Source of the DNA: Verrucomicrobium sp.
Lineage (GTDB): Bacteria; Verrucomicrobiota; Verrucomicrobiia; Methylacidiphilales; UBA1321
Assembly (NCBI GenBank): GCA_017849585.1
Contig: JAFIGT010000013.1
Span: 1-64,000, forward strand
Reading direction: 5' to 3'
DNA: 64,000 nucleotides
Below the pieces are notes generated by a model, which searched no databases, was not told where the DNA came from, and saw only the letters and a program-made list of their open reading frames with translations. Every line of letters starts with the position of its first letter. The stretch's first letter is position 1. The position numbers and the translations under genes were made by a program. Of the stretch, positions 11,120-37,111 are shown in pieces.

Positions 11120-11575
11120 ATGAACTCAGTCCTCCCGCAGGCAAAGAATGCCCGGTTCTGGCAGGATAGCACAGCGTTTAGCCTAGTGGAAGTCATCCTT
11201 GCTCTTGGAGTATTCACCTTCGCCCTGATGGGACTGATCGGATTGTTGCCGATGGGATTATCAAATCTCAAGAAAGCGATCGATACAACAACGGAAGCGC
11301 GCATCGTGCAGCGCATCTCCAATGAACTGTCGCAAACCGAGTACGACCAAATTCCAGACTTCGCGACGTACTATTTTGACGAGAATGGACAAATTCTCAG
11401 CAATTCATCAGACGGATATATTTATGCGGCCCAATTCACGGCCAGCAAGAGCACTGCCATTCTGGGAGCGAGCGCTCCTTCCACAAACCTCACCACTGTA
11501 GTCATCACAATCACCAGCCCAAAAAAAGCGAAGTACACTGCGACATATACAAAGTGGATCGCGAAGAAGAATTGA
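11120..11575 (+). CDS. Verru_Chthon cassette protein B (type IV pilin-like)
   Basis: Product of 151 residues with a type IV prepilin N-terminus: AFSLVEVILALG at residues about 19-30, with cleavage expected before Phe or Ser and Glu at the fifth mature position, then a hydrophobic helix ending in a Pro-Met-Gly turn. The small globular part resembles GspI/pseudopilin proteins. Family placement rests on the four-gene cassette described for Verrucomicrobium spinosum and Chthoniobacter flavus (Verru_Chthon A-D models, TIGRFAM), here in the order B-C-A-D. Likely part of an envelope pseudopilus, possibly for secretion. A gap of 13 bases separates it from protein C. Confidence 0.85.
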   Translation: MNSVLPQAKNARFWQDSTAFSLVEVILALGVFTFALMGLIGLLPMGLSNLKKAIDTTTEARIVQRISNELSQTEYDQIPDFATYYFDENGQILSNSSDGYIYAAQFTASKSTAILGASAPSTNLTTVVITITSPKKAKYTATYTKWIAKKN

Positions 11576-11588
11576 CCTGCTTGTTGCC

Positions 11589-12626: not shown

Positions 12627-12634
12627 GATCTATT

Positions 12635-16345: not shown

Positions 16346-16346
16346 C

Positions 16347-16994
16347 ATGAAAACCTACCGGCTATCCATCAGGCGAAGTCAAGCATTCTCCCTAACAGAA
16401 CTTCTTGTTGCGACCGTGATAATAGGGCTGTTGACTACGATTTCGATTCCAGCGTTCAATCGCATTGTCCTTAGCTCCAATCTGACTCAGTCTGGACAGC
16501 AACTAGTAGATCAGTTTATGGTCGCCAGACAATCTGCTATAAGCCAGAACCGCGCCGTTGAATTGCGTCTCTATATTTACAAAGACCTCGTCAGTGGAAA
16601 ATCTAGCGATTCCTATGCCATACAGTCGTTTATTCGACTCGCTACATCTGAGCTCGCCGCGCAAGGAGTCGATAATTCCTATAAACCTTGTGACAAAGTT
16701 TACTATTTGCCCACCACAATTCAGCTTAATTCAACTTCAGGCTATTCGACAATATTGGACTCCAGCCTTATTACACGTCAGCCGGCTCCAACAAATCAAC
16801 CGCTGCCACGGGTCAAAACTAACTACGAGTATATACCCATTCTTTTCTATCCAGACGGATCAACAAACCTCGATCCAACTAAAAATTGGTTCTTAACACT
16901 CACTTATGCCAACGGCGAAACATCTAGTTGGAAAAACTTTTATACAATCCAAGTAGACTCTCTAACGGGAGCAGTCAAAACGTACCGGCCTTAG
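16347..16994 (+). CDS. Verru_Chthon cassette protein D (pseudopilin-like)
   Basis: Product of 215 residues. A longer frame upstream exists, but the ATG at 16347 is chosen because it lies one base after the stop of protein A and places the prepilin motif AFSLTELLVATV at residues about 12-23, the expected distance. The N-terminal helix and the short globular tail resemble GspH/FimT-type minor pseudopilins. It ends the B-C-A-D set; a rhamnose mutarotase gene follows after 13 bases and may share the transcript. Confidence 0.87.
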   Translation: MKTYRLSIRRSQAFSLTELLVATVIIGLLTTISIPAFNRIVLSSNLTQSGQQLVDQFMVARQSAISQNRAVELRLYIYKDLVSGKSSDSYAIQSFIRLATSELAAQGVDNSYKPCDKVYYLPTTIQLNSTSGYSTILDSSLITRQPAPTNQPLPRVKTNYEYIPILFYPDGSTNLDPTKNWFLTLTYANGETSSWKNFYTIQVDSLTGAVKTYRP

Positions 16995-17007
16995 AGGAAT
17001 TTGTGGC

Positions 17008-17322
17008 ATGATTCGCAAAGCTTTTATTATGTCTGTTCACGGCCAATTTGTCGATGAATACGAGCGTCGGCACAATCCTATTTGGCCCGAACTTGCAGCG
17101 ACGCTTAAGGTGCATGGAGTCAACAACTACTCCATTTACATAAGCGACAAGACAAATCAGTTGTTTGCCTATGTTGAAATCGAAGACCTAAAGCGGTGGG
17201 AAGAGATCGCCGAAACAGAATGGTGTCGAAAATGGTGGAAGCACATGAGCGAAATCATGCCTTCAAACGTTGATAACAGTCCTGTCTCGACCCCTTTGAG
17301 GGAAGTGTTTCATCTCCGGTAG
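17008..17322 (+). CDS. rhaM: L-rhamnose mutarotase
   Basis: Interconverts alpha and beta anomers of L-rhamnose. The 104-residue product matches the family length, with an N-terminal Arg-Lys-Ala-Phe strand, YERRHNPIWPEL carrying the active-site Tyr/His pair (about Tyr18 and His21), NYSIY, and LFAYVEIED. No rhaA, rhaB or rhaD genes lie nearby. It starts 13 bases after cassette protein D and its last 13 bases overlap the end of the convergent GH2 gene. It suggests that rhamnose is released from a substrate handled by this locus. Confidence 0.92.
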   Translation: MIRKAFIMSVHGQFVDEYERRHNPIWPELAATLKVHGVNNYSIYISDKTNQLFAYVEIEDLKRWEEIAETEWCRKWWKHMSEIMPSNVDNSPVSTPLREVFHLR

Positions 17323-19274
17323 AAATCGCTCGACGATGCGAGAAAAACTTTCTGCAAGGCATAATAAGCTGGTTTGGGCTGGCGATCGAAATCGATGAGT
17401 GATGTATTCGAGGGGCAGGGGAACGCGTCATGCCCCATCCAAACAATAAATCCGGCGCATGTTGGAAACCGACGCTTGCATGAGATTGCGGCCAGGGCCA
17501 GAAATTTGGCCTGACGCTCCTGCGACAACTTGATATATGTTTTGATCTGTACGGATGGTGAAAGATTGCGGAGTTCATTTTCGAATAGCTCCCATTGCAA
17601 CCACCAGGCAGAACTGTGTCGCCACCAAGGGTTGGTAAACGATGGAGGCCATATTGATTCTCCCTCGGCATAACGACGCAGTAGTTTTTCGCTGGAAGCT
17701 CCGGCAACTCCTGTTTCTGCGCGAAGGAGGCTGTCGTCGTGTTTCCAATAGTCCTGCCATTCCGCTTCGCTAGCGACACGATCCCACGGCCCATGCACAT
17801 GGTGATGTCGTCCAGTGCCCATTGCGCACCGATGCGCGTAAAAAAGAGGACCACTTGGAGATGTTGGGAAAAAGCGAATTTCGGGTTGCTCACGCTTGAC
17901 TATTCGAGCCATTGCTGCAATTGCCGGATGCCCCTCATTGAGGGGAGCGGGAATATCGTCGAGACTGGCAGGTGCCTTTTGAAGTTCATTCCCGCCACAC
18001 CATGCGACCATGCAGGGATGGGAGGAGCGACGGCGAACGTAGTCGGTGACGATTTTCTCAAGTAGGCGGATCATTTTGCGGCCTCTAGGGGCTTCGCTTT
18101 CTACCCCGGATGAAGAAAGGGGGAATTCCTGCCAAACCATTAGGCCGGCAGCATCGCATTCTCGATAGAATATTTCCCTCTCCAGATATCCTCCACCCCA
18201 AACTCTCACGAGATTGCATCCCATCGACTTGTAAAGCAGGACGAGCTTGCGGCAATCGGCATCTGTCGCAGCCGGATAGTCCATTGTCTGCGGAGTCCAA
18301 TTCACGCCTTGCAGAAAAAGAGGCTTCCCATTCACCTCACATAGTAATGGTCTCGCGTCAGAAGGTGCTTTGGCACATGGCAACCAGCGTACGTGTTTGA
18401 AACCAACGGGCCCCGAAAACAGGGTGTCACCGCCGCTGCTTATCTCAAGCCGGTAGCATCGGGCATCTCCCGATCCATTTGGCCACCAAATCTCCGGCTG
18501 CCTTACATTGATGAGTATTGTTTTCGCTCCTTTACCAAGAACGACTTTTTTATCTACAATTAAGGCATTGGTTCTAGGAGCTTGCAAGCGAAGTCGGACG
18601 GACGTTTTATTTCCTGGATTGTGGAGCTGTACGATTACTCTGCCACGCTGTAACTGTCTCGTGGTCTCGGTGCGCGCATTCAGTACCTCGACGTTCTGCG
18701 GACCGACGACCAATGTCAGCTTATCCGAAATACCCACCGGCACCAAACGTACGCACCAATCCCAACTGAAGCTGTAGCGCGGTTTGAAGTAGCGGGAATG
18801 CGACGTTACGCCGACTTGACCTTGCTCCTCGGGAGGCAAATCGAAGATCAAACTCAATCGATGTGATCTACCATCACTTAGAATTTTGCCCAAGCGAATA
18901 GAATGACGCAAAAGGGCTCCGGCAAAGGAGGTCACGAGATTACCGTCGACCAAGACGCAACCAGAATAATCCAGCCCTTCCGCATATAGGGTCATTTCTT
19001 TTCCTGTCGGCAACTCGTTCTCTTTAAAGTCCGTAAAGAATTCCCATTGGCGGTGTTCGATCCATTCACAGCTCAACGATTGGCGGCCTTTGTTCCAGTC
19101 TGGAATAATGCCTTCATTTTTCAGAGTAGTGTGAACCGAACCAGGTACGACCGCCGTATAAGGGCCGAATTCAGGTCTGAATACACTGCCGGTTTCTACA
19201 GAGCGAAGCAGCTTCCAGTAATTTGGCCTCCATCCTTGGAGCATCCACCTACGGGTATGAAGATTGATATGCAT
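17310..19274 (-). CDS. Glycoside hydrolase family 2, beta-mannosidase-like
   Basis: Predicted retaining exo-beta-glycosidase. The 654 residues hold the GH2 order: N-terminal jelly roll (about 1-190), an immunoglobulin-like domain (about 190-300), then a TIM barrel. The barrel shows VRVWGGGYLER, WQEFP, and CGGNEL with acid/base Glu430; AETGVAG holds the likely nucleophile Glu520. These motifs are those of beta-mannosidases. The chain is shorter than many beta-mannosidases (over 800 residues) because it lacks the C-terminal beta domains. No signal peptide. It lies 24 bases after the MFS transporter gene and closes the leftward GH92-lacZ-MFS-GH2 operon. Confidence 0.88.
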   Translation of the reverse strand: MHINLHTRRWMLQGWRPNYWKLLRSVETGSVFRPEFGPYTAVVPGSVHTTLKNEGIIPDWNKGRQSLSCEWIEHRQWEFFTDFKENELPTGKEMTLYAEGLDYSGCVLVDGNLVTSFAGALLRHSIRLGKILSDGRSHRLSLIFDLPPEEQGQVGVTSHSRYFKPRYSFSWDWCVRLVPVGISDKLTLVVGPQNVEVLNARTETTRQLQRGRVIVQLHNPGNKTSVRLRLQAPRTNALIVDKKVVLGKGAKTILINVRQPEIWWPNGSGDARCYRLEISSGGDTLFSGPVGFKHVRWLPCAKAPSDARPLLCEVNGKPLFLQGVNWTPQTMDYPAATDADCRKLVLLYKSMGCNLVRVWGGGYLEREIFYRECDAAGLMVWQEFPLSSSGVESEAPRGRKMIRLLEKIVTDYVRRRSSHPCMVAWCGGNELQKAPASLDDIPAPLNEGHPAIAAMARIVKREQPEIRFFPTSPSGPLFYAHRCAMGTGRHHHVHGPWDRVASEAEWQDYWKHDDSLLRAETGVAGASSEKLLRRYAEGESIWPPSFTNPWWRHSSAWWLQWELFENELRNLSPSVQIKTYIKLSQERQAKFLALAAISCKRRFPTCAGFIVWMGHDAFPCPSNTSLIDFDRQPKPAYYALQKVFLASSSDFYRR

Positions 19275-19298: not shown

Positions 19299-23805
<4,507 letters not shown>

Positions 23806-25944
23806 TTAGGAAGATATCGGACTAGGAGGAGGCTGATGACTGCCCCAGTCAGAGGGTTTTGCCGAGACGCATAACCGCAGCGTGCCTCCCGCGATAATCT
23901 CACTGTGGCGCAACCACGCTCGGTCAAGCGCCTTCCCGTTTAGCTCTGCTGCGGTGATATAAATGGCATCGGCCGAATCGCCATCTGATTCAATACGGAA
24001 TACAGAGCCGCTGCTACCAAGTTGAATTTCCGTGCAGCGAAAGATGGGAGCCGTTAGCAAATAAAGATCCTGTCCCATTACCGGATAGAGCCCCATTGAA
24101 GAGCACATATAAAAAGCGCTCTGGCAACCCATATCCTCATTGTCACTAAGGCCATCACGCGTCGACTTGAAGTAGCGCTCGCAGACCCATCGCGCCTTCT
24201 CCACTGATCGATCCGGACGGCCTGCATAATGATAGAGATACGGAATATGCATCATCGTTTCTTTGCAATCGAAATAGCCTTTTTCAAAAAAAGCATCCAG
24301 ATGCGCAATGAATGACTCTGCCCCTCCGTGACGACGAATTAAACCGGCTATGTCATGAAGCACCTGAAACGACCACTGCCACGAATTTCCCTCATAAAAG
24401 TAAGGATCGTTCCATCGATCTGGCCAATGGTACGCGGGGTCAAAAGGATCCACCCAACGTCCCTTTTCATCACGAGGCGCAAACAGCCTGATACTCTCTC
24501 TCCACAGGTTCCAGACCCACATGGATTCACTCTCGTACTTCTGTGAAAGATCTCGGCAGCCTAGTTTCTTTGCTAAAGCGCTGGCGCACCAAGTCTGATA
24601 AGCATACTCGAGATGCCGTGAGACGCATGCGGAGCGAACCGTGGTCGACAGATACCCATGCCTGCGATACTCCGCTAGGTACCGGCCACAAGTAGCCACA
24701 TCTGAAGGCTCCTCCTCATTATTGATCTGAACATGCCGGAACGCTTCTTCGTAGTTAATCCCAGGTAGTTCCTTCAACGCCGCTTCCGCAAACAGAATAT
24801 CAGCAGAGCTTCCGCCTTGCATGCAGGTGCGGTGTCCGGCAATCCATCCGTCCGGAAGCCACCCGGTATGGTCGGCAACGTCGATCAAGCAATTGATCTG
24901 CGCCGCCACCACTTCCGGGTCGATGAGTGCTATCAACGAGTTGGCATTTCTAACGCTATCCCACAGACAATAGAAGTCAGTAAAGTGCCGCACATTGGAA
25001 TGCCAAAGCGGAAACTCATCATTCGTCCCAAGATCAGTCGGCATGCACACCAATCTCGTGAAAAGAGTGTGGAATAACGTGCGCTGAACCGCAGTCCCTC
25101 CAGTCACCTTGATCTTGGAGAGCATCTTCTCCCATTTGCCCTCTGCTTCTGCCCGGATATCGTCAAAGCTCTTTGTTCCGATCTCTCGTTCGACGCTCGA
25201 CCGAGCTTGGGCAATACTAACAATGGATATTCCAACCTGAAGCTCTACCATCTGCTCAGCCCCAAAGCCCAGAAGCATCCGGCAATTTGGACCGCTGGCA
25301 TGCCCAGGCGTCACAAAGCCGCTCGCATCTGCAGCTCGACATGAACGAATCGGACGGCTGGCTCTGGCATAAAAGTAAACTGAATACGGGTGGTCGTGCC
25401 CCCATCCACCTCGGAAATCCCCTCGCCCAAATACAGCATTGCTACCAAGCTTTTCGATAATGCCGCCAATACAGCGCGGAGGCGTACCATTATAGTCGTT
25501 CGCAGCATGATACGGTTGTATCAGAGCGCCAGCATCCAGTAGAATTCTTGCCGCCCCATGCGATGGAAACGTGTATCGATGAAACCCCACACGTTCCGTG
25601 CTGGTTAACTCGCAGCGAATTCCATCAGGCTCGAGCGAAACCGCATAATAACCAGGGGACGCGCATTCGTCTTGGGCATGGAAGCCATCCCAAGCTAGGC
25701 GCTCTGCTCCAACGAGCGGAGTCACGCGAATATTTCCGTAACGACTGAGCCCCCCCGTTCCACTTACGTGAGTATGCGAAAAACCAATGATCGGGCTGCC
25801 CGTCGCATAACCGTTTGTCGTATGCGGCGGTAAGGTATCCGGCCCAAGACGGACGAGACTGTACGGAAGGTATGGCCCGCAAAGACATCCACCGGGACCA
25901 TCAACCCCGATAAATGGATCAACTTCTGAAAGGATAGAAACCAT
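23806..25944 (-). CDS. Alpha-mannosidase, glycoside hydrolase family 92
   Basis: Predicted calcium-dependent, inverting exo-alpha-mannosidase. The 712 residues carry the GH92 hallmarks: VDPFIGVDGPGG, LVRLGPDT, GFSHTHVSGTG near the N-terminus, a CLWDSVRN motif, EGNSWQW with the likely catalytic acid Glu518, and EDMGCQSAFY with SSMGLYPVMG near the end. Unlike many Bacteroidetes members it has no signal peptide, so it seems cytoplasmic. It is the first gene of the leftward operon and is divergent from an AraC regulator. With GH38 it suggests use of alpha-mannosides, for example from high-mannose glycans or yeast mannan. Confidence 0.95.
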   Translation of the reverse strand: MVSILSEVDPFIGVDGPGGCLCGPYLPYSLVRLGPDTLPPHTTNGYATGSPIIGFSHTHVSGTGGLSRYGNIRVTPLVGAERLAWDGFHAQDECASPGYYAVSLEPDGIRCELTSTERVGFHRYTFPSHGAARILLDAGALIQPYHAANDYNGTPPRCIGGIIEKLGSNAVFGRGDFRGGWGHDHPYSVYFYARASRPIRSCRAADASGFVTPGHASGPNCRMLLGFGAEQMVELQVGISIVSIAQARSSVEREIGTKSFDDIRAEAEGKWEKMLSKIKVTGGTAVQRTLFHTLFTRLVCMPTDLGTNDEFPLWHSNVRHFTDFYCLWDSVRNANSLIALIDPEVVAAQINCLIDVADHTGWLPDGWIAGHRTCMQGGSSADILFAEAALKELPGINYEEAFRHVQINNEEEPSDVATCGRYLAEYRRHGYLSTTVRSACVSRHLEYAYQTWCASALAKKLGCRDLSQKYESESMWVWNLWRESIRLFAPRDEKGRWVDPFDPAYHWPDRWNDPYFYEGNSWQWSFQVLHDIAGLIRRHGGAESFIAHLDAFFEKGYFDCKETMMHIPYLYHYAGRPDRSVEKARWVCERYFKSTRDGLSDNEDMGCQSAFYMCSSMGLYPVMGQDLYLLTAPIFRCTEIQLGSSGSVFRIESDGDSADAIYITAAELNGKALDRAWLRHSEIIAGGTLRLCVSAKPSDWGSHQPPPSPISS

Positions 25945-26153: not shown

Positions 26154-27104
26154 ATGATGAGCAGCATTTTTTCACATAATCCTCTTGTTTTTGAGATCTT
26201 CAATAATTACTCTATAAGAGCAATGTATAAATGCCTTCTACGGGCTGACGTCATTCCGGGACAACACTGCACCTACGCGCATACCATTTGGCGGCACACT
26301 AGTCCCTCCTGCATCCATAACCACGACTATCACGAACTCTTTTGGGTCGAAGAAGGTGCTGGTTATCATTGGATCAATGGTAAAAAAAAGGAACTCAGAC
26401 CAGGCATGCTCATCTTGATTCGACCCGAGGACGAACATGGCTTTAGCGCCCTGCCAGATAATTTACTCCACATTACGAATCTCGCTTTTTTCTCTAGCAG
26501 TTGGCTCAACATTCAAAAACGATATTTCCAGGCTAAGCCAATTTTCTTTGCTCTGAAAGCGTTGGAAAAACGAGAATATTTTCTCGATTCCGCAAAAATG
26601 CTGGAGCTTCATCAAGCGGCGCGAGATTTGCAAGATGGTGCGCGAGACCTACTGACTATCGAGCGCTTTCTTCTCAATATTTTTGGGCTGCTACAAACCC
26701 ATTGGCCTCTGGTTGAACAGAACAATACACCAGACTGGCTCTTTCGTGCCTGCGAAGAGATTCGCAAGCTCCACAATTTCGAAGGCGGTACTTTGCAATT
26801 CGCCAAGATTGCGGGGAGATGCCCAGCTCATGTCGCGCGCGCCTGCAAAAAATATCTCAACACCACTCCTACTGACATCGTCAACGATGCCCGCATGATC
26901 TACGCCGCCACGAGGCTCTTGGAAACTGACGATGCTATTGTCGACATTGCGCTTGATTGCGGCTTGGAAAATCTAGGGTACTTTTACCGTCTCTTTCAGG
27001 CCAAATTCGGCTTTACTCCCCACACCTATCGCCGCCACCAACGCGCCGCATTGCGCCCCGGACATGGTCTGGTTATAAAGGTGGAAACAGAGCCAGGACA
27101 TTGA
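26154..27104 (+). CDS. AraC-family transcriptional regulator
   Basis: Predicted sugar-responsive activator of 316 residues. The N-terminal half (about 40-130) is a cupin-like sensor with HNHDYHELFWVEEG and LRPGMLILIRPEDEHG. The C-terminal third (about 200-300) has the two helix-turn-helix motifs of the family, with DIALDCGLENLGYFYRLFQAKFG typical of the second. The start is uncertain: two ATG codons at 26154 and 26157 and a third at 26223 are possible. Divergent from the GH92 operon, which it most likely controls. Confidence 0.9.
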   Translation: MMSSIFSHNPLVFEIFNNYSIRAMYKCLLRADVIPGQHCTYAHTIWRHTSPSCIHNHDYHELFWVEEGAGYHWINGKKKELRPGMLILIRPEDEHGFSALPDNLLHITNLAFFSSSWLNIQKRYFQAKPIFFALKALEKREYFLDSAKMLELHQAARDLQDGARDLLTIERFLLNIFGLLQTHWPLVEQNNTPDWLFRACEEIRKLHNFEGGTLQFAKIAGRCPAHVARACKKYLNTTPTDIVNDARMIYAATRLLETDDAIVDIALDCGLENLGYFYRLFQAKFGFTPHTYRRHQRAALRPGHGLVIKVETEPGH

Positions 27105-28926: not shown

Positions 28927-29163
28927 ATGGCGACCGCTAGCAAGAACATCCTCGGCAAACGCATCCATGCCCTGCGTAAGGCAGCTAAACCTGTGATCAC
29001 GCAGGAAGATCTCGTGGCGCGTTTGGCAGCACGGGGGATCTATCTGGATCGTACCGCCTTGGCTCGGATCGAGAACGAAGACCGTTTCCTGCGCGACTAC
29101 GAGATTGAGGCCATCGCCAAGTGTCTGCGGGTCTCCGTGGCTGAGCTGTTCAAACGGGGATAG
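28927..29163 (+). CDS. XRE-family helix-turn-helix regulator
   Basis: 78 residues, almost only a Cro/C1-type DNA-binding domain: KRIHALRKAAKPVITQEDLVARLAARGIYLDRTALARIENEDR, then a C-terminal AIAKCLRVSVAELF helix. The length is normal for single-domain XRE repressors. It is divergent from a leftward set of an exported and two membrane proteins, with matching inverted repeats in the gap. Likely an autorepressor. Confidence 0.88.
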   Translation: MATASKNILGKRIHALRKAAKPVITQEDLVARLAARGIYLDRTALARIENEDRFLRDYEIEAIAKCLRVSVAELFKRG

Positions 29164-29451
29164 ACACCCCTAAGTCTGTCTGAGGCCCTGGTTCGAGGGC
29201 ATCGGAACTCTCTACTGTAAAAGGCAGGGTGGCCGTTGGCTCTTCACTTCACGACTCAAGTGCTGAATGAGGCGAAAGGGCTGCTCCAGTCGCTTTGAAT
29301 ATCGGACGCGTCTAGAGTTGAAAGGCGAGTTGGCATCACAATCCTCGACCTTATACTTACCTGACGACAGGTTGGGGGAAGGCTAAGCCCTCCTTAGCCC
29401 TACCGTCATCGCCCATGACGTGATAGGCGTCAGGCTATAGAGTCTTCATCA

Positions 29452-29474
29452 ACCGTATAGAACCCGGTATAAAT
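29452..29474 (+). repeat. Left copy of att-like imperfect repeat
   Basis: Two GTATA cores about 8 bases apart. Agrees with the copy at 36211-36235 in about 17 of 22 aligned bases with one gap. Same orientation. Candidate element end or recombinase-binding site; AT-rich chance similarity is possible. Confidence 0.3.
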
Positions 29475-29552
29475 ATTTCGAGATGAATTGAGAAACGGAG
29501 GCGGGCATCGGACTTCCCTAGAGTAAATGGGTGATTATCGACCAGAAAACCG

Positions 29553-29590
29553 CGTTGCTACTTTGGCTCGATTGAGCCGAGGTAGCAACG
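29553..29590 (-). terminator. Rho-independent terminator after the element operon
   Basis: CGTTGCTAC (29553-29561) pairs with GTAGCAACG (29582-29590), and inside it GGCTC pairs with GAGCC. Reading leftward the stem is followed by a short T-rich tail (GGTTTTC). It begins 2 bases past the stop of the 105-aa gene. Confidence 0.7.
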
Positions 29591-29591
29591 G

Positions 29592-29909
29592 TTAGGCCAT
29601 TAACCCCCATGTCTCATAGCCCTCACGCAACCCATCATCGATCCACTTGGGATTGCGATAGCCACACAGCTTCTTGATGTGCGCCCGTACCAGACGCTTC
29701 GCGTGCGGGTAAGGAATGCGCAGGCATCTGGCCAGACGCCCTTTCTCGATCAACCATGCGTTACCCTGAGGGCGTTCGCGTAGCATCGAAATAAAGCACG
29801 AGATCTCGCGATTGGAACGGACGGGATACTTATAGATTCTGACCAGACGAAAAGGTGTGACACCTGTTTGAACCGTTGAGGCGATGCGATAAGCGGCGTT
29901 AAGCTTCAT
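29592..29909 (-). CDS. Hypothetical protein of the integrated element (105 aa)
   Basis: Not recognised. Strongly basic 105-residue protein with helix-rich C-terminal part (LARCLRIPYPHAKRLVRAHIKKL), which could form a helix-turn-helix, so DNA binding is possible. Its ATG overlaps the stop of the preceding gene in an ATGA arrangement, which shows translational coupling. A terminator follows at once, so this is the last gene of the element operon. Confidence 0.65.
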   Translation of the reverse strand: MKLNAAYRIASTVQTGVTPFRLVRIYKYPVRSNREISCFISMLRERPQGNAWLIEKGRLARCLRIPYPHAKRLVRAHIKKLCGYRNPKWIDDGLREGYETWGLMA

Positions 29910-30361
29910 CAGAAGCCCCTTTCCTGTGACAGCGTGACGCGAGTCGACTGGAACTCCGTTATGAGATCATGCAATCCGCTGGCATAGAGGTTAGCCTTCA
30001 ACGAGAACTGTTGAGCCGCATCGACCTCAAGACCAGATCGCGAGGGCGTGCCGAGCAGCTCGAAACAATACAGGGCTCCTTGAGACAGAAAAGATGCCGC
30101 ATTCACGTAATAGGCCAGCTGATGATACTGCGCCACCGTGAGCCTGGCCATGCAAGCCGTGTGACGGGTCAATCGCCCCAGATTGGCAATATCGCAGAGG
30201 GCTGCGGGTAGACGGCAAGGGGTGTTCGTGAGCGAACTGAAGTAGCGATAGGCCTGAATCAGGGAGTCTTTGACTCGACGAGTGGAGAGGTCGAGATCCT
30301 GATAGGCTTCCTCCAGAACAGCTGAGGAGGGTTGAGAGGGAGCAGTTTGTACATGATTCAT
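29909..30361 (-). CDS. Hypothetical protein of the integrated element (150 aa)
   Basis: Not recognised. 150 residues, mostly helical, with no signal peptide or clear membrane segment. The middle (about 60-105) is rich in Ala/Leu/Tyr with a conserved-looking Arg-His-Thr-Ala-Cys stretch. It overlaps the downstream 105-aa gene by one base. A 317-base gap with several inverted repeats separates it from the gene upstream. Confidence 0.6.
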   Translation of the reverse strand: MNHVQTAPSQPSSAVLEEAYQDLDLSTRRVKDSLIQAYRYFSSLTNTPCRLPAALCDIANLGRLTRHTACMARLTVAQYHQLAYYVNAASFLSQGALYCFELLGTPSRSGLEVDAAQQFSLKANLYASGLHDLITEFQSTRVTLSQERGF

Positions 30362-30678
30362 TTAGTGGAAAGTACTGACAGACCCATGGCGGTACGCCAA
30401 AGGCCTCACAACACGAACAGAGGGTTGGTGGTTTCTGGTCAGATAATCGTGGTGTTTATGATATTTCGTGATCATGTCTCTATTATAGAAAATCAGACGT
30501 CTTAATTCAATAGCTAATAGTCTAAATAATACATTCGAATAGATATACTTAATACAGCTTGGTACTACCAAGAGAGTGCCACAAAGTTCAAAACGGTTAG
30601 GCCTTTCTGGCCATTGTTTTGGATTAAATTGTGGCACGCTCCAGGATTTAGCTATTTAGACGATTTCGAGAACGACTG
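30362..30678. other. AT-rich gap in the element with clustered inverted repeats
   Basis: No gene. Holds a perfect 7-bp inverted repeat CTTGGTA-C-TACCAAG (30558-30572) and a longer stem GAGTGCCACAA (30574-30584) against TTGTGGCA plus CGCTC (30629-30641), with GGCC-tttct-GGCC in its loop. It may be a transcription end, or a replication origin for the Rep-like protein encoded upstream. Confidence 0.5.
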
Positions 30679-31485
30679 TCATATGGATATATCGTACATA
30701 GTGGCTGGAATATCGCGAAAGGCCCTTTTCACGATATAGCCAATTTGCACGGAGGTAGGTTCCATAATTTGAAGCTCTGAGAAAATTCGCACCAAGGTTC
30801 CAGCCACGGGATGAACTTCCAGATCTGAGTAGATGGCGTCTCTAGCTGCCTTGAAGACTTGCCGCTTGGGATGGTCCATCCAGTCCATTTTCTCAATGTC
30901 GATTAGCCAGTCAGCCACCGCGACGAATCGACAGTTCTGGGGATATTCGTATTCCAAGGAAACGTAATCGCGGCGAACCACTTCTCGATAGCGCGTTTTC
31001 GCCAGCTTAAGCAGCAAATGCTTGTCGCCGATGATCTTTTTATACTGTGCAAGCCAGCTGATGAGAGTATTGACGGCATACCTTATCTCGAGCCTGTATT
31101 CAGCGGCCTTCCAGAATGCGATATTCAGTGAACGATAGGCGTTGGCGTGACTCCAATCGCAACGGCTGATGGCACGGTGATAATAGTCGATGAGCTGGGG
31201 ATCGCGACAGTTCGCCCATTTATCGAGCTTGGAGGGGTACTTGGGAGGGCAATCGGGTATCATCGAGATCAGCTTTTCGACGCGAGTTTTCCGCAAGGAT
31301 GGGTTGTCGCTAATCCAAATCAGAATCTTAGGATCATTTCCTTGGCTGTCACAGGGGGGAATAGCGCTTGCAGGCGTCAGCGGAGGATAGGTTGGGCGTA
31401 TATTGGGCAATTCGTAATCGATTAAAGGCATGTAAGGTCTTTCTGTAATTAAGGTTGGTGTGTAGGCAGGTGGTGTTAATTCCAA
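30679..31485 (-). CDS. Hypothetical protein of the integrated element (268 aa)
   Basis: Not recognised. The first 50 residues are Pro-rich and look disordered; the rest is helical, with many basic and aromatic residues (for example RYREVVRRDYVSLEYEYP). No signal peptide or membrane helix. Its start overlaps the end of the Rep-like gene by 10 bases, so the two are translated together and may work together, for example as a replication accessory protein. The latter is inference from position only. Confidence 0.65.
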   Translation of the reverse strand: MELTPPAYTPTLITERPYMPLIDYELPNIRPTYPPLTPASAIPPCDSQGNDPKILIWISDNPSLRKTRVEKLISMIPDCPPKYPSKLDKWANCRDPQLIDYYHRAISRCDWSHANAYRSLNIAFWKAAEYRLEIRYAVNTLISWLAQYKKIIGDKHLLLKLAKTRYREVVRRDYVSLEYEYPQNCRFVAVADWLIDIEKMDWMDHPKRQVFKAARDAIYSDLEVHPVAGTLVRIFSELQIMEPTSVQIGYIVKRAFRDIPATMYDISI

Positions 31486-32783
31486 TCGACGTCAGCAAGC
31501 GGGATGGCCTTGACGTGGTTCCAGCCATCATTACGCCTGGCCCTGGGAACCCCGATGTACTCAGAGTTCTTTGCATTCATGGAGCCAAAGCCCTGGATAT
31601 GCCTGATGGACTTGGGATAGTGAGAGATCAGGCTGACTCCGTTGATAAAGTCCCGTACTTCATTGTTGATTTGCCAGGCTGGGCGTTCTCCAGTTGTCAC
31701 CATTCTCTGCCAGTCCATTCGATAGCGAGGATTGAGGTTAATGGGCTTGATCAGATAGCGTAACGCGGACTTGAGGGAGGATTGGGTGTTGATGCGGCGA
31801 ATGCAGACGGATGCCTCCAGGGAGGTAGGGGCATCAACATGCTCGAGCAACGTATTGATGTATTGCTGAAGCTCGTTGATGGTGGTGTCGTCTAGGTCTG
31901 TAGCGTCGACTACTCCGTGCAAGTGAGGGCAGATCTCAAGCGGGAGAAATTGTCGAACTGAAACCTCGTCGCTCATGTAGAATCCGCTGATAGCGGTCTT
32001 GTTGACGCGACTGTACAGCTGAAGGCCAGTGCGAAGCAGGCTCCAATAGGTCCTCAGGTTGCTGGCATTGATGTGCGTGAATGGGATAGAGCCCTTGATC
32101 GAAATGGTGATGAACCAGAAAGTACCTTTGCTGAAGTGAGGGAGAAACTCCTTCCAAAGCTGCGTCGCTGCAGCGTAGGCACAGCGAGGGCACCAGTAAT
32201 GATTCTTGCAACGTTTATGATCAACCCCGCAGAGGCAGACGCTTTGCAGGAATGGAGGATGGGCAAAGACGAGCATGCCTAGATTGGCAAGGAATGCATC
32301 AATGTAGGCTTCATGGCTGAACTGAACCTTCTTCATGCCTGAGATGAGGAGTCGAGATTGAGTACGATCCAGTAATTTAATATTCGATACGACCTCACTA
32401 AGATTAGCTAGATTAAGGGAGTCGATTGTCTTTAATCCTTTTCTTATGTCAGAGTCTGTTAATAGGTCATTTGCTAAGCTAGTATATTTATATAGGCAGG
32501 TGTCATCTTCGATAGGTTTGAGCACGTAAGTAACGTCTCCTCCTTCGAAAACGGGGGCTTCAGGGGCGGCATTAGGACAAATGGAGTCCGCTGGGGCGCT
32601 TGTCGCGATGTTACAAACAGGCAGGACGGTTGGACTGACCGCAATTTGTCCTGAGGTGTTAGAGTTTAGCGACAGCGTGTCGCTAAGTTCGCTGGAGCAG
32701 GCGTGGTTATCGATCTGTTCCTCAGCATTGGTTTTGCTTTGAAAGGCATGCATATAATTCTTCAGTTGATTTAAAATATTCAT
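31476..32783 (-). CDS. HUH-type Rep protein with zinc finger, putative rolling-circle initiator
   Basis: Product of 435 residues with the three motifs of rolling-circle replication initiators: FITISI (224-229, motif 1), PHLHG with His287 and His289 (motif 2, metal binding), and ALRYLIKP with the likely nucleophile Tyr343 (motif 3, pattern Y-x-x-K). Before them five cysteines (183, 185, 192, 198, 201) with CPRC form a zinc-binding motif, as in several plasmid Rep and phage proteins. The first 90 residues look disordered. It would nick one DNA strand at an origin and stay bound through tyrosine. Next to an integrase this points to an element that replicates after excision. The motifs are seen; activity is inferred. 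Confidence 0.7.
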   Translation of the reverse strand: MNILNQLKNYMHAFQSKTNAEEQIDNHACSSELSDTLSLNSNTSGQIAVSPTVLPVCNIATSAPADSICPNAAPEAPVFEGGDVTYVLKPIEDDTCLYKYTSLANDLLTDSDIRKGLKTIDSLNLANLSEVVSNIKLLDRTQSRLLISGMKKVQFSHEAYIDAFLANLGMLVFAHPPFLQSVCLCGVDHKRCKNHYWCPRCAYAAATQLWKEFLPHFSKGTFWFITISIKGSIPFTHINASNLRTYWSLLRTGLQLYSRVNKTAISGFYMSDEVSVRQFLPLEICPHLHGVVDATDLDDTTINELQQYINTLLEHVDAPTSLEASVCIRRINTQSSLKSALRYLIKPINLNPRYRMDWQRMVTTGERPAWQINNEVRDFINGVSLISHYPKSIRHIQGFGSMNAKNSEYIGVPRARRNDGWNHVKAIPLADVDWN

Positions 32784-32871
32784 AGTTTAAGGCACGACGG
32801 TTCCGTATGCCTCAGATCGTGTGATCTGAGGCAGGGACGGAGTTTGGAGAACTCTTACTGACGACTAGGTC

Positions 32872-33438
32872 TTAAGCGGCCTTCTTCAGTTCGATCTCAA
32901 ATGGGATTTGAGGGGCGGCCTTATCTGCCTCGATAGCTTCTGCCACTTGCTCCGCTTCAGATAAAATCGTAGAGCCGCTTTTCTCGACCCATTTTTTTAA
33001 CGCTTTGAGTTTCTGCTTGGGGACCTTCAATTTGATTTCCTCAAAATCAATAGCCGCCTGTTCTTGAGGCTGATCATTCTCCAATCCCTTTTTCAAGGCC
33101 GCTTCTTCCCTGTCGAGTTTGGATGCGAGGTCATGAGCGTCCGCGAACGTCTTGACGCTTCCATCCAGAATCGCGCGTTCGACGTCGTCCTTCCGCTTGA
33201 AGACCTTCCGATAGCGTTGAATCTTCCTCTTCTCTCCCGGGAAATATTTATCGAGAAACTTTCCCTGCTCACCACGGGGCAGTGCCACATAGATCGGTTC
33301 GAGCGCCTCGATAAATTTCAACGAAAGATCCAATACCTTTCCATCTGCCTGTTGTATTTCCTGGTAGATGGCGATGATTGCGGTCAGGTCTCCATCATTG
33401 GCATTGTTATCGTCGGGTTTGTTGGCAATTTCTGACAT
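32872..33438 (-). CDS. Hypothetical coiled-coil protein of the integrated element (188 aa)
   Basis: Not recognised. Highly charged and almost wholly helical: residues about 15-60 helical, about 75-120 Lys/Arg/Glu-rich with KRKDDVERAILDGSVKTFADAHDLASKL (resembling a ParB-like or Rep-accessory helical segment), and a Lys/Glu tail. No membrane segment. It lies 88 bases upstream of the Rep-like gene and shares its strand, so a DNA-binding accessory role is possible but unproven. Confidence 0.6.
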   Translation of the reverse strand: MSEIANKPDDNNANDGDLTAIIAIYQEIQQADGKVLDLSLKFIEALEPIYVALPRGEQGKFLDKYFPGEKRKIQRYRKVFKRKDDVERAILDGSVKTFADAHDLASKLDREEAALKKGLENDQPQEQAAIDFEEIKLKVPKQKLKALKKWVEKSGSTILSEAEQVAEAIEADKAAPQIPFEIELKKAA

Positions 33439-33495
33439 GATAATATCTTTCTTTCTAGGAGCAGTGCTCCTTTAGTTTGTTAAGGATGAATAATT

Positions 33496-33508
33496 TGTGG
33501 GTGTTTTT
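33496..33508. repeat. Left arm of a 13-bp inverted repeat flanking the excisionase-like gene
   Basis: TGTGGGTGTTTTT, exact inverse of the sequence at 33918-33930. The pair encloses the 98-aa gene, one copy in each flanking gap. May be operator or Xis/Int arm sites. Confidence 0.5.
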
Positions 33509-33549
33509 TGATTATTGGCACCTACTGAAATGGCGAGTAGCCCACGGCG

Positions 33550-33846
33550 CTAGCTATAAGCTTTTGCCTCTCCAATCAGCTTTTGGACTTCGTTCGCTGG
33601 AATGAGAATGCGACCGTTGCCCGGCTTGATGCACTTAATCTTACCCTTATAAAGAAGACGATACGTGAAGGTCTTCTCTCTACCGAAAAGCGAGGCAAAT
33701 TCAATCGGCGTGAAAGCGACTCGATCAGTCTGGATTTTGCTACCCACGTCCAGCACTGCAAGCAACTCTGCGCCTTTTGATGCCTCTACTGCTTCTTTGT
33801 TAATCATTACAGGGTCAACAATGCCTTGAAGAAAGCACCTCATCAA
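33550..33846 (-). CDS. Excisionase-like helix-turn-helix protein
   Basis: 98 residues. Residues about 43-92 fit the excisionase/MerR-like HTH_17 pattern: an initial FTPIEFASLFG helix, a second helix, the basic wing KIKCIKPGNGRILIP, then a closing helix EVQKLIG. Such proteins direct integrases toward excision or select the site. The real start may be an internal ATG (residue 14, MINKEAVEAS). A perfect palindrome (33876-33898) sits just upstream, and a 13-bp inverted repeat flanks the gene, which fits autoregulation. Confidence 0.7.
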   Translation of the reverse strand: MMRCFLQGIVDPVMINKEAVEASKGAELLAVLDVGSKIQTDRVAFTPIEFASLFGREKTFTYRLLYKGKIKCIKPGNGRILIPANEVQKLIGEAKAYS

Positions 33847-33875
33847 CTGAAGCCCCGTTTGAAGATAATTCTGTC

Positions 33876-33898
33876 AAAAGTAGTTCTAAACTACTTTT
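33876..33898. promoter_or_regulatory. Perfect palindrome upstream of the excisionase-like gene
   Basis: AAAAGTAGTT-cta-AACTACTTTT: 10-bp arms, no mismatch. It starts 30 bases upstream of the ATG at 33846, where an operator would lie. No gene in the surrounding 33847-34110. Confidence 0.55.
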
Positions 33899-33917
33899 CA
33901 AGTTGACACTTCCATCC

Positions 33918-33930
33918 AAAAACACCCACA
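33918..33930. repeat. Right arm of the 13-bp inverted repeat
   Basis: AAAAACACCCACA, exact inverse of 33496-33508, on the far side of the excisionase-like gene. Confidence 0.5.
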
Positions 33931-34110
33931 CATGAGTGACATTATTCTAGTCAGCACATGCGACCGCATGCCTTCGTCCTCTCACGTCGTCATGCGTGAA
34001 ACTCATCACCGTCACATCCCCTCAATTCATATCACTCGTCTCTAATTCAATAGCGCTATACTTGCGGCCCTGAGGTAGGCATGATGGAATTACTTTACTA
34101 TGATTCTGCC

Positions 34111-34911
34111 TCAATCTGAATTAGGCTCATGCAATTTAGCTAGTTTTTTAATAATGGCTTCAATTTTGGACCATGGAAATGCCTCTAGCTTTTTGAAATC
34201 CTCTTGCGCCGACTTAAAATTGTGTCGCCAGTGAGCCGGTAACTGCCCCATAGGAATCTTCTGAAAATGTATTAAGTCGTATGCTTCTATTCTTGGCCAT
34301 AGTTTAACAGCGTTCTGGTCATTTGATCGCTTGCGCTTATCAATACCTAATTGCTGCCGCTCATGGGCTAGCCAGTCCTTAAATTCTTTAATCAGTGAGT
34401 GATCAGATTTGTTCAGATTATAGCTTTCTAAATTTACGGATGACCATAATCCAGTGCCTTCATTGATCTCATGTTTGACAAGAGCATCTACTCTAGAATC
34501 CAATTCTTTGGATACGTCGGTAGCTATACTCGATAAATCCTTCACATTATCCAAAACTCCATTCCATCGGCTTAGATGCTCCACAAGGAGTTCGAGCAAG
34601 TAGTCGCTAATCTGCTGGTACGCTTTTAGGCGACCTAGTAATCTATTTGTTTTGCTTTCTCCGTTCAAAAAGCTTGCTAACGCCAATTGCTTATCAAAAG
34701 ATAGCCTCAGCCACTTTTCGCCAAAGTAGTATTTTCCAGTTTTGCGCTTATACAGTTCATAGATGTATGGAGCCTGTGGCTTTTCGATCCAAAGAAGTGT
34801 CTCCAGATACTCTTCTTTATTGATTGAATGCGAAAATCGCCACCACCAATTGTATTTTTCTATGCAGTTTTTAAAATCGGCCGGAATCGGCGTCAACTCT
34901 GTGTTGGCCAT
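34111..34911 (-). CDS. Hypothetical protein of the integrated element (266 aa)
   Basis: Not recognised. Helical, Trp- and Lys-rich chain of 266 residues without signal peptide or membrane helix. The N-terminal part has several tryptophans (NWWWRFSHS), the middle looks like a coiled coil (about 95-150). AT-rich codon use differs from the GC-rich host genes to the right. It lies between the excisionase-like gene and the integrase, a place that often carries cargo, so it could be a defence or accessory gene; nothing in the sequence shows which. Confidence 0.6.
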   Translation of the reverse strand: MANTELTPIPADFKNCIEKYNWWWRFSHSINKEEYLETLLWIEKPQAPYIYELYKRKTGKYYFGEKWLRLSFDKQLALASFLNGESKTNRLLGRLKAYQQISDYLLELLVEHLSRWNGVLDNVKDLSSIATDVSKELDSRVDALVKHEINEGTGLWSSVNLESYNLNKSDHSLIKEFKDWLAHERQQLGIDKRKRSNDQNAVKLWPRIEAYDLIHFQKIPMGQLPAHWRHNFKSAQEDFKKLEAFPWSKIEAIIKKLAKLHEPNSD

Positions 34912-34995
34912 AAGCGAGCTAATTTATTAGAACTTTAGATTTTTGCGTTTGCTTCTGCGTCCTTGAAGGAGTTGACAATAAATGCGCCTCGTAGT

Positions 34996-36225
34996 TTATT
35001 TGCGCTCTTTTCCTTTAGCCTTCGCTCCGTTTTCCTCTTTATCCAGCAAACCAAAACTTACCTTCGACATAGCGGATTGGGCATGCTCATCACGCAGGTG
35101 CCCATACACCTTCATGGCAAGTGCCCCGCCGTCTTTATGACCCATAATCTTTGCGACAGTGGGAATGTCGATACCCGCTTCAATGGCTGTAGTGGCAAAT
35201 AGGTGGCGTAGATCATGGTGACCGATTCGAGGCGCAGATGCATTCTTGCAGGCTCGTTCGAGAAAGCCTCGACACTCTTTCAATCGGAGAACGGGCGTTT
35301 CAAGTGATTCGTCCTTTCTCGATTCTCTCATTTTTTCGAGCAAGGCTCGACATTCAAAAATCATCGGGACATCACGAGGCTCGCCGTTTTTGGTCACTCG
35401 CAAGGTGATCCGTCCACTACTGAAATTCACGTCCTTCCACAGGATATTATTGGCCTCCGTTTGACGCGCACCGGTATAAGCAAGCAGACGAACCATCTCT
35501 GAGGCAGCCATATTATCGCGACAGCCAGCGTTTTCGATCTCCTTAACTACTGCCATGAATTGTGCCCGGCTAGGCAACAGCAATCGTTTCGTTTTTTGTC
35601 GCCCCCGCTTGATGCTTTTATCTCGCGCTGGATTCACAAACAGATGCCCAGACTCCACCGCAATATCAAGTACATGGCGCAGTGCATCCAAAGCAGAATT
35701 AAATGTCGTGGCCGAGACCCCGGTTGAATTCCGGGAAGGCTTATGAGCTCCGTTAGGAATGTGCGGAGTCGCACTTGACCTCACCCTTAATGCCCATTCA
35801 CGCACCATTGGAACGGTGATCTTCCTGATGTTAAGCCCACCAATCTCGGGCCATGTTTTGAAAATGCGCTTGATCCCAGCCTCCTGGAAGCGTTTGGTGC
35901 CTTCGGCTATTTCCACGCTACGCTGGAAGTTCTGGCGGTAGATTTCAACGGCTTCGGCAAAGGTAATTGTACCCTCAGCCACCTTTATCCCCTTGGATCG
36001 CTGCTGCCGGGCATTACCCATCAGTACTTGTAACTTCTCTTCCGCGACAGACTTAAGCGTTGTCTTAAGAGATTTCCAAATTTCCTTGCCACCAACAAAA
36101 ATTCTCGCGTAGTATCTACCATTGCTGTGACGGTAGAGATTCGGCACATTGGTTTTCGTCCAACCGGGCGTTGCGGAGTTTTTCACAGGTTTGCAATTAA
36201 TTCTTGCCAAACTGTATAAAAACAC
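34996..36225 (-). CDS. Tyrosine recombinase (phage-type integrase)
   Basis: Catalyses site-specific insertion and excision. 409 residues with an N-terminal arm-binding region (about 25-60, YRHSNGRYYARI), a SAM-like core-binding domain (about 85-200) and a catalytic domain with all key residues: Arg254 (TGARQTE), His337-x-x-Arg340 (HDLRH), His363 (GHKDG) and Tyr374 (KVYGHL). Active site is intact. The frame opens at GTG 36225; a second GTG at 36186 is as plausible and no ribosome-binding site decides. The start lies only 61 bases before tRNA-Lys, the likely attachment gene. Confidence 0.92.
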   Translation of the reverse strand: MFLYSLARINCKPVKNSATPGWTKTNVPNLYRHSNGRYYARIFVGGKEIWKSLKTTLKSVAEEKLQVLMGNARQQRSKGIKVAEGTITFAEAVEIYRQNFQRSVEIAEGTKRFQEAGIKRIFKTWPEIGGLNIRKITVPMVREWALRVRSSATPHIPNGAHKPSRNSTGVSATTFNSALDALRHVLDIAVESGHLFVNPARDKSIKRGRQKTKRLLLPSRAQFMAVVKEIENAGCRDNMAASEMVRLLAYTGARQTEANNILWKDVNFSSGRITLRVTKNGEPRDVPMIFECRALLEKMRESRKDESLETPVLRLKECRGFLERACKNASAPRIGHHDLRHLFATTAIEAGIDIPTVAKIMGHKDGGALAMKVYGHLRDEHAQSAMSKVSFGLLDKEENGAKAKGKERK

Positions 36226-36235
36226 CGTATAAAAA
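36211..36235 (+). repeat. Right copy of att-like imperfect repeat
   Basis: Two GTATA cores separated by about 9 bases, overlapping the integrase start. Similar to 29452-29474 in the same orientation. Could be an element end or an integrase-binding site. Confidence 0.3.
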
Positions 36236-36286
36236 GCAATGTTTCAACGGCTTGGAATCTTTTAAGTTGTTGGTAATAAGTTTAAT

Positions 36287-36362
36287 GCCTCGGTAGCTCA
36301 GTTGGTAGAGCAGGTGACTCTTAATCACTTGGTCCAAGGTTCGAGTCCTTGCCGGGGCACCA
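36287..36362 (+). tRNA. tRNA-Lys (CTT)
   Basis: 76 bases fold into a full cloverleaf: acceptor GCCTCGG/CCGGGGC (one G-T pair), D stem GCTC/GAGC, anticodon stem GGTGA/TCACT with loop CTCTTAA and anticodon CTT at 36320-36322, T arm CAAGG-TTCGAGT-CCTTG, discriminator A and an encoded CCA. Intact. It is next to the integrase, and is the probable attachment gene of the element, although the integrase lies on its 5' side. Confidence 0.96.
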
Positions 36363-36655
36363 CTAACTCCTTAGTGGACAACGAGAATTGAGCCGCTCGT
36401 TCCGAAAATGATGTCCATCCACGGACCCTCCTTCACGTTACACAAAGTTTTCCACACTAATTCGGGACAACCTCATCCCGTGTGATTTCCAACTTTCTCC
36501 CTCCCCTCGGAATCACTTGGTCTGTCCCAAAATTACACAGGATGTTACACAAACAGGGGGTGAATTTGGGGTGGTTTTGGAGGTGACTTCTGATCTTTTC
36601 GGTATCACTGTTTTTCCCATTAGGATCACGCCAAACACCACCCTAAATAATTTTT
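36363..36655. other. Gap downstream of tRNA-Lys
   Basis: No gene seen. It has three similar short motifs (GTTACACAAA, GTTACACAAA, ATTACACAGG) and AT-rich ends; no duplicate of the tRNA 3' end was found by eye. Confidence 0.3.
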
Positions 36656-37111
36656 ATGATTCATCTCGAACTTAAAGAGGGCAACGTCATTCCAAATATT
36701 TCAGAGCTTCTTGAAAAGCATCACGAATATGGAGGTTCCATAGTTCAATACAAACGGGTATTCTCTATGATATCAGTTTGTCATAAGAGCTGTAAATATA
36801 TATGGGTAGCACCTGGGAATAGTCGAGTCTATGCAGGATTAAAACACACACTTTTCTGTGCAGCCTTTGGTTGGTGGTCTCTTTTTGGATTTGTCTGGAC
36901 GATTGCAGCCTTAGTCCAAAATTTAACAGGAGGAATCAACGTAACCTCGACATTAATTGGCTCATCAAAGCCCGGACTTCAATATCAATCAAATGACGAT
37001 CAAACAAACAAGGAGCAGCAACGTCTCTTTATAATTCAGTTCCTAGTGTTTGCTACGCTATTCATACTATTTGCCACGCTTGCTTATCGAGGCTCCACAC
37101 ATCCGAAATAA
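36656..37111 (+). CDS. Hypothetical membrane protein
   Basis: 151 residues with two hydrophobic segments (about 65-87 and 124-144). No family recognised and no ribosome-binding site is visible. It is AT-richer than genes to the right and may be part of transferred DNA. Ends before a strong hairpin shared with the convergent gene. Confidence 0.45.
   Translation: MIHLELKEGNVIPNISELLEKHHEYGGSIVQYKRVFSMISVCHKSCKYIWVAPGNSRVYAGLKHTLFCAAFGWWSLFGFVWTIAALVQNLTGGINVTSTLIGSSKPGLQYQSNDDQTNKEQQRLFIIQFLVFATLFILFATLAYRGSTHPK

Follow-up and report, generated by a model that had tools for sequence, protein, structure and literature searches.

Genes and attachment repeats at tRNA-Lys(CTT)

The window analyzed here, the first 64 kb (64,000 nucleotides) of contig C37 from the genome of a lake bacterium of the phylum Verrucomicrobiota (source genome, G000), contains a group of genes next to tRNA-Lys(CTT) that we interpret as one end of a mobile genomic island. 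The tRNA gene (36287-36362, forward strand, called by ARAGORN) would be the regenerated target at the integrase end of that island. The original prediction described eight leftward genes beside it, and open reading frame (ORF) and ARAGORN calls agree with this description. Nearest to the tRNA lies int (34996-36225, reverse strand), which encodes a tyrosine integrase of 409 amino acids (aa) matching PF00589 (5.6e-21) and a PHROG integrase profile (9e-54). It is intact, as had been claimed, because the catalytic residues R254, K279, H337/R340, H363 and Y374 are invariant across an 8-row alignment of diverse sequences. Farther from the tRNA, all on the reverse strand, follow genes for a 266-aa protein with weak, below cut-off similarity to DUF6387 (34111-34911); a 98-aa excisionase-like protein of the helix-turn-helix (HTH) family HTH_17 (33550-33846); a 188-aa protein (32872-33438); a 435-aa zinc-finger HUH Rep-type protein, hereafter Rep (31476-32783); a 268-aa protein whose gene overlaps the end of Rep (30679-31485); a 150-aa protein (29909-30361); and a 105-aa protein (29592-29909). 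A ninth ORF of 91 aa (30362-30637) is doubtful. Among the eight, family searches named only int and the HTH protein, and the 188-, 268-, 150- and 105-aa proteins had no family match. The excisionase-like assignment, also made originally, is supported by PF12728 (1.1e-5), with TIGR01764 (2.2e-5) falling just below its cut-off.

The start of int is 62 bp from the 5' end of tRNA-Lys, and its transcription runs away from the tRNA. This places the element 5' of its target, the reverse of the common layout; neither this position nor entry through the 5' half was noticed in the original prediction. The attachment repeat is 38 bp long, corresponds to tRNA-Lys positions 1-38 (36287-36324, forward strand) and ends 2 nt past the anticodon. 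Searches with the tRNA-Lys locus of a related genome, G001, located displaced copies of this segment in the source genome (G000:C30:97450-97487, one mismatch) and in a sister species, G002 (Verrucomicrobia bacterium Tous-C9LFEB, the closest relative with a name, described in PMC5673642; C23:129830-129867). The outer flank of the displaced copy is common to G002:C23 and G000:C30. An intact tRNA and a displaced fragment of the same tRNA in the same orientation are thus found on one contig in G002, 31 kb apart, and on two contigs, C30 and C37, in the source genome, and a tyrosine integrase lies within the tRNA-bounded interval, as in a tRNA-targeted genomic island. G002 carries an integrase 96% identical to that of the window (92.6% at the DNA level) in the same position at the same tRNA-Lys. 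G001, on the other hand, has tRNA-Lys without an integrase, and its similarity to the window starts exactly at the first tRNA base (36287) and continues to 222 bp past the tRNA. The site is therefore occupied in two of these species and unoccupied in the third, which bears out the claim of an integrative element at tRNA-Lys. The repeats, the direction of insertion, the occupied and unoccupied sites and the conservation of this layout across the clade described below can all be read from the DNA.

A large variable region continues to the left of 29452, and the presence of the tRNA-Lys 1-38 copy with its native flank on C30 indicates that the island extends leftward through the window start. We therefore take the window to show the integrase end of a larger island for glycan degradation, which would measure at least 48 kb if C30 and C37 join.

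Several smaller features surround the tRNA and the eight genes. The 222 bp after tRNA-Lys (36363-36584) are about 90% conserved in the three species, similarity then ends abruptly in both comparisons, and a variable small gene follows (36656-37111). An exact 12-base copy of tRNA-Lys positions 37-48 (AATCACTTGGTC) at 36511-36522, 150 bp past the tRNA, is kept in all three species together with repeated TTACACA motifs and is possibly a relic of an older 3'-side element. By eye, a promoter-like sequence stands upstream of the displaced copy in G002, and a hairpin at about 29552-29591, directly past the last (105-aa) gene. GC content falls from about 0.60 to about 0.51 across 1-37 kb of the window, and the sign of GC skew flips over the Rep module (29001-33000), although its genes are co-directional with int. 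Padloc assigned none of five window proteins to a defence family.

Integrase position and repeats across the clade

The 5'-side position is a property of a whole clade of integrases. In all, 336 integrase relatives were identified. Among 80 named loci, taken from one genome per species, 70 of the 72 integrases with a nearby tRNA are divergent from it on its 5' side, and the same holds for 27 of 29 in a set of class-level relatives; the two sets overlap partly, and their counts are not independent. Of four loci at which no tRNA was called, three retain damaged remnants of one in the same orientation. The tRNAs used as targets include those for Ser, Arg, Met, Thr, Lys, Leu, Pro, Cys and His. At least 18 changes of target isotype are seen on a tree of 67 integrases, with polarity held in all but two rows, both of which fall in one mainly tRNA-Arg group.

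A second conserved feature is a pair of direct repeats, GTATAAAAA, at 36214-36222 and 36227-36235 in the window. It has a period of 13, lies 51 bp from the tRNA and overlaps the annotated start of int. A period-13 repeat is the best pair in 27/30 and in 61/70 relatives, roughly 40-70 bp from the tRNA, and exceeds 95% of shuffles in 23 of 30. By their position and spacing these repeats look like candidate arm-type integrase sites. Between int and the tRNA there is also a weak promoter-like TTGGAA-16-TAATAA arrangement (36252-36279), seen by eye only. At three loci (L116, L175 and L176; L numbers denote loci of relatives) a damaged recombinant tRNA adjoins the integrase, upstream of int, as if the element-supplied tRNA could decay. 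Another locus, L017, has an integrase between inverted 42-bp copies of the 3' half of a CAT-anticodon tRNA (12440-12481 and 14082-14123).

Further members of the clade can be delimited at both ends. Another island of the same type in the source genome, 64.7 kb long, occupies tRNA-Ser(CGA) (G000:C23:179287-244127, covering L069 and L014) and is bounded by 40-base repeats. Its displaced 5' half starts at C23:179287, an intact tRNA-Ser with an integrase 71% identical to that of the window is located at C23:244037, and an unoccupied counterpart with the same 3' flank is present in G002:C36. An integrase remnant outside the far repeat shows that this site had served an earlier element. A second case of serial insertion is seen in L168 (8615-8983), where the beginning of another integrase follows a displaced 5' half of tRNA-Arg. 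At tRNA-Thr, Met and Arg there are four small bounded elements (2.7-6.7 kb) with 5' repeats of 39-40 bases. In all bounded cases the repeat runs from tRNA base 1 to 2-3 bases past the anticodon. Such limits would suit a crossover in the anticodon loop, the 5' half presumably being kept identical since the tRNA must stay functional.

The zinc-finger HUH protein and its association with integrases

The 435-aa protein was originally described as a zinc-finger protein with rolling-circle motifs, and this description holds. In an alignment of 11 homologues the four cysteines (C185, C192, C198 and C201 in the window protein) and the tyrosine (Y343) are invariant, and a glutamate, the HxH motif (H287, H289) and the lysine (K346) are nearly so. 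HxH precedes the catalytic-type tyrosine, which stands in a Y-x-x-K motif with the signature Y-x-x-K-P-[IM]. Searches of Pfam, PHROG, NCBIfam, PDB sequences, plasmids, phages and IMG/VR returned no match to Rep, and the Pfam REP_ORF2-G2P and PHROG Rep profiles specifically did not match it. It is present in a single copy in the source genome; its relatives occur in 8 of 384 genomes of the class and, for one order, in 11 of 320, and within the genomes searched here only in Verrucomicrobiota.

Structure prediction, named beforehand as a refutation test of the original prediction, yielded an HUH-like fold. An AlphaFold (AF2) model of the Rep core, built on the 11-sequence alignment, reached pLDDT 84.1 and pTM 0.83. 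Its first Foldseek match in the PDB is 4er8, an HUH transposase of the REP-associated tyrosine transposase (RAYT) type (E 2e-3, probability 1.0), and the Rep protein of adeno-associated virus 2 (AAV2) is among the top eight matches; no PDB match reaches E 0.001. A library of viral structures gave 40 matches with E ≤ 0.001, the named ones being Microvirus initiators and a parvovirus NS fragment; Inovirus Gp2 falls just above this line. An HUH fold of the 435-aa protein is thus well supported by modelling; the protein may serve replication, mobilization or transposition, of which we infer the first.

An integrase is located within about 5 kb of Rep in the window and in L003, L037, L088, L089 (degenerate), L039, L090 and L095. 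In five of these (the window, L003, L037, L088 and L089) it is on the 5' side of a tRNA; in L039 and L095 Rep stands beside another type of integrase on the 3' side. The L039 element (14177-17089), at tRNA-Asp, also has DNA methylase genes (N6_N4_Mtase, HsdM-like). No attachment repeats were found within the stretches examined for the Rep-bearing L003, L037, L039, L088 and L089. Most elements of the clade have no recognized Rep. The commonest Pfam family downstream of 5'-type integrases is another initiator family, REP_ORF2-G2P (5 of 109 proteins), whose profile matches proteins of other clade elements and not the window Rep; its probable members are in L112, L127, L133 and L150, with L123 added by motif. 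That two unrelated Rep families occupy the same position speaks for a genuine functional partnership between Rep and integrase. The zinc-finger Rep is, in our view, a new HUH Rep family linked to the 5'-half integrase clade.

The HUH protein could instead be a transposase-like (RAYT or IS91-type) or mobilization (relaxase-like) nickase carried as cargo, a possibility that we regard as doubtful and worth keeping in mind. Its best solved-structure match is the RAYT transposase 4er8, a zinc finger combined with an HUH domain also occurs in IS91-type transposases, and the G002 island manages without the protein. A single copy in the source genome is, however, unlike a transposase family, and a tyrosine that follows HxH in Y-x-x-K is Rep-like rather than relaxase-like. 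Moreover, the neighbours at most Rep loci are integrases, the named viral-library matches (Microvirus initiators, Inovirus Gp2, the parvovirus NS fragment) are replication proteins, and a second, unrelated Rep family occupies the same place in other elements.

The larger island, its history and its relation to known systems

Returning to the island as a whole, its cargo within the window occupies 4013-27104 and consists largely of genes for polysaccharide degradation: glycoside hydrolases (GH) of families GH38 (5608-8649), GH36 (8673-10820) and GH2 (17310-19274), a major facilitator superfamily (MFS) transporter (19299-20702), a GH2 beta-galactosidase (20674-23802), GH92 (23806-25944) and an AraC regulator (26154-27104). 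Amid the hydrolases stands a complete Verru_Chthon cassette (B, C, A, D; 11120-16994), and its presence within the island means that such a cassette can be mobile cargo. The C30 part encodes GH42, an alpha-L-rhamnosidase, a GDSL lipase, a mandelate-racemase-type enzyme, a short-chain dehydrogenase and a GntR regulator. Transfer, capsid and packaging genes are absent from the scanned genes of the window and the distal C30 part.

The island has a mosaic history. From 1.5 kb outside the far repeat to an insertion sequence, C30 (G000:C30:95915-109355) is 98.9-99.8% identical to G002:C23, except for one 0.6-kb piece at 94.6%, whereas the flanking chromosomes of the two species are only 88-92% identical. 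Since the exchanged tract included chromosomal flank, these identities suggest that the island was recently exchanged by homologous recombination when already integrated. From the insertion sequence to int, the island in the window is unlike that of G002, and the G002 sequence adjoining the break has no close counterpart in G000. The break itself appears to be an insertion sequence inside the island: the window start contains a terminus (approximately 71-123) that is shared, in inverted orientation, with the end of C30 and runs into a transposase start, which we take to be IS3-like by eye, from the start of orfA. This inverted terminus is all that C30 and C37 have in common, and no direct overlap was found between them.

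Relative to G002, the Rep module is positioned between the 266-aa gene and a gene for a 78-aa HTH repressor-like protein (28927-29163, forward strand). The latter is 85% identical to the gene adjoining int in the G002 island and is therefore probably part of the island backbone. The original prediction took the eight genes to make up a whole compact element, about 7 kb long and ending at a terminator near 29.45 kb; such an element could lie inside or beside a larger variable region, and we consider this unlikely. In its favour, the genes for the integrase and for a 266-aa-like protein (31% identical) in G002 directly adjoin the HTH gene that stands left of the Rep module in the window, so the module is a discrete block. 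The relative L150 (395-6202) is also a complete element of 5.7 kb, with an integrase, an HTH_17 protein, a REP_ORF2-G2P protein, a STAND-type ATPase and 40-base repeats; its ATPase resembles the defence candidate PDC-S59. Relatives of the HTH_17 protein adjoin int in L003, L014 and L017 as well as in L150. There is, however, no tRNA 5' repeat near 29.4 kb, the true repeat with its native flank is on C30, and the 28927-29163 gene, past the proposed end, is common to the G002 island. Elsewhere in the window no convincing copy of the tRNA-Lys 5' part was seen (the longest exact matches to positions 1-38 are about 10 bases), no 3'-half repeat or other direct repeat was found around the eight genes, and no terminator-like site was called at 29452. 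The compact limits were accordingly rejected. The idea of an integrase, excisionase and Rep acting together is thus borne out for the class by L150 and fails as a 7-kb unit in this genome, and overall the earlier observation is confirmed in part and its interpretation partly supported.

It is far less probable that the genes belong to a prophage or phage satellite that uses a Microvirus- or Inovirus-like Rep for single-stranded DNA replication. The structural similarity of Rep to replication proteins of these viruses and the inverted GC skew over 29-33 kb would suit such an origin. Against it, the scanned genes include no capsid, coat, Zot or terminase family, in line with the original statement that phage structural genes are missing; neither Rep nor int has a relative in IMG/VR scans, and Rep has none in phage or plasmid records. 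An Inovirus or Microvirus prophage was rejected on these grounds. Integrases adjoining tRNAs can be relics, so that the genes might be ordinary fixed chromosomal neighbours of a tRNA, a reading that is hardly credible given the intact catalytic residues of int and the exact tRNA-bounded repeats, and that is refuted by the occupied and unoccupied sites among the three species.

We therefore return to integration through the tRNA 5' half, and consider it likely that the island entered tRNA-Lys(CTT) in this way, with bases 1-38 as the shared core, and that Rep serves for copying after excision. Recombination would take place within the anticodon region, between the chromosomal tRNA and an incoming circle that carries int, the pair of arm sites spaced by 13 bp, some 50 bp of upstream DNA and a tRNA 5' half of its own. 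After integration the tRNA at the integrase end would be intact, preceded by DNA of the element, and the native promoter and 5' half would have moved to the far end. Int may excise the element together with the HTH_17 protein, after which the zinc-finger HUH protein may nick the circle and start rolling-circle copying, either in an AICE-like function (see below) or as a mobilization step. The glycan-degradation genes would be passenger cargo, exchanged between related species.

Several observations weigh against this reading. The halves of the island are on separate contigs that both end in the same insertion sequence, and the bases flanking it lack a target duplication, so adjacency of C30 and C37 is not proven; a rearrangement mediated by the insertion sequence, or another contig between the two, is therefore possible. 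Two relatives, L139 and L165, lie 3' of tRNA-Arg. The interval from int to tRNA-Lys yielded no consensus promoter call, and no origin or nick site was identified for Rep. Finally, the G002 island has no Rep module, so Rep is not required for persistence of an island.

Evenly balanced, in our judgement, is the broader proposal that elements throughout Verrucomicrobiota enter the tRNA 5' half, swap its promoter, have repeatedly joined with HUH initiators, including an undescribed zinc-finger family, and carry glycan-degradation or defence cargo. In nearly all tRNA islands known so far the host promoter is kept and the 3' end of the tRNA is replaced; this clade does the reverse. An essential tRNA would thereby come under the control of mobile DNA, which could couple the state of the element, integrated or excised, to tRNA supply. 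The clade also provides a sequence rule for exact island ends in a phylum with few described mobile elements, polysaccharide-degradation loci, including the Verru_Chthon cassette, appear to travel on such islands, and the linked HUH proteins suggest a replication mode so far undescribed for mobile elements of Verrucomicrobiota. The results of lasting value are the clade of 5'-half integrases, its sequence rule and the linked HUH Rep family.

Known HUH initiators (pC194-type Rep, Microvirus and Inovirus Rep, REP_ORF2-G2P) share with the window Rep the order of motifs 1-3, HxH, Y-x-x-K and the HUH fold, and pC194-type Rep likewise has zinc-finger-like cysteines before motif 1. The window Rep differs in having no family match, in its Y-x-x-K-P-[IM] signature and in its restriction to Verrucomicrobiota here. 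RAYT (4er8), the top Foldseek match to the Rep core, has the same HUH single-tyrosine fold, whereas the window Rep is single-copy and integrase-linked and has an N-terminal zinc finger.

Actinomycete integrative and conjugative elements (AICEs) such as pSAM2, with which the original prediction compared the locus, similarly unite an integrase, an excisionase-like protein and an initiator of replication within a single element integrated at a tRNA (PMC3218068). The likeness does not hold as a class: the host is a verrucomicrobium rather than an actinobacterium, insertion is from the opposite end of the tRNA, Rep is of another family, and none of the genes scanned in the window or in the distal part on C30 encodes a Tra protein of FtsK/SpoIIIE type. 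Of the AICE replication types RepSA, RepAM (DUF3631) and Prim-Pol, the test covered the last two, and neither Rep nor its neighbours had a Pfam hit to them.

The 5' polarity itself is already known, and rare. In Islander, 159 of 3919 islands (4%) have a 5' fragment (PMC4383910). Like the islands described here, these have an onboard tyrosine integrase, a tRNA regenerated at one end with a fragment at the other, and a crossover in the anticodon region. There they are a minority, whereas in the integrase clade described here 70 of 72 members share the arrangement, through at least 18 isotype changes and with a conserved 13-bp repeat pair; a limited literature search found no other account of an entire bacterial clade devoted to 5'-half integration. 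A review of archaeal integrases (PMC8371274) states that the pTN3-like ones likewise have their attB in the 5' half of a tRNA gene and that the integrase promoter then drives the recombinant tRNA genes; citing Williams 2002, it adds that a comparable situation is seldom met in bacteria. Integration of the pTN3-like elements splits the integrase gene into int(N) and int(C), whereas int in the window stays intact, with its attachment site outside the gene.

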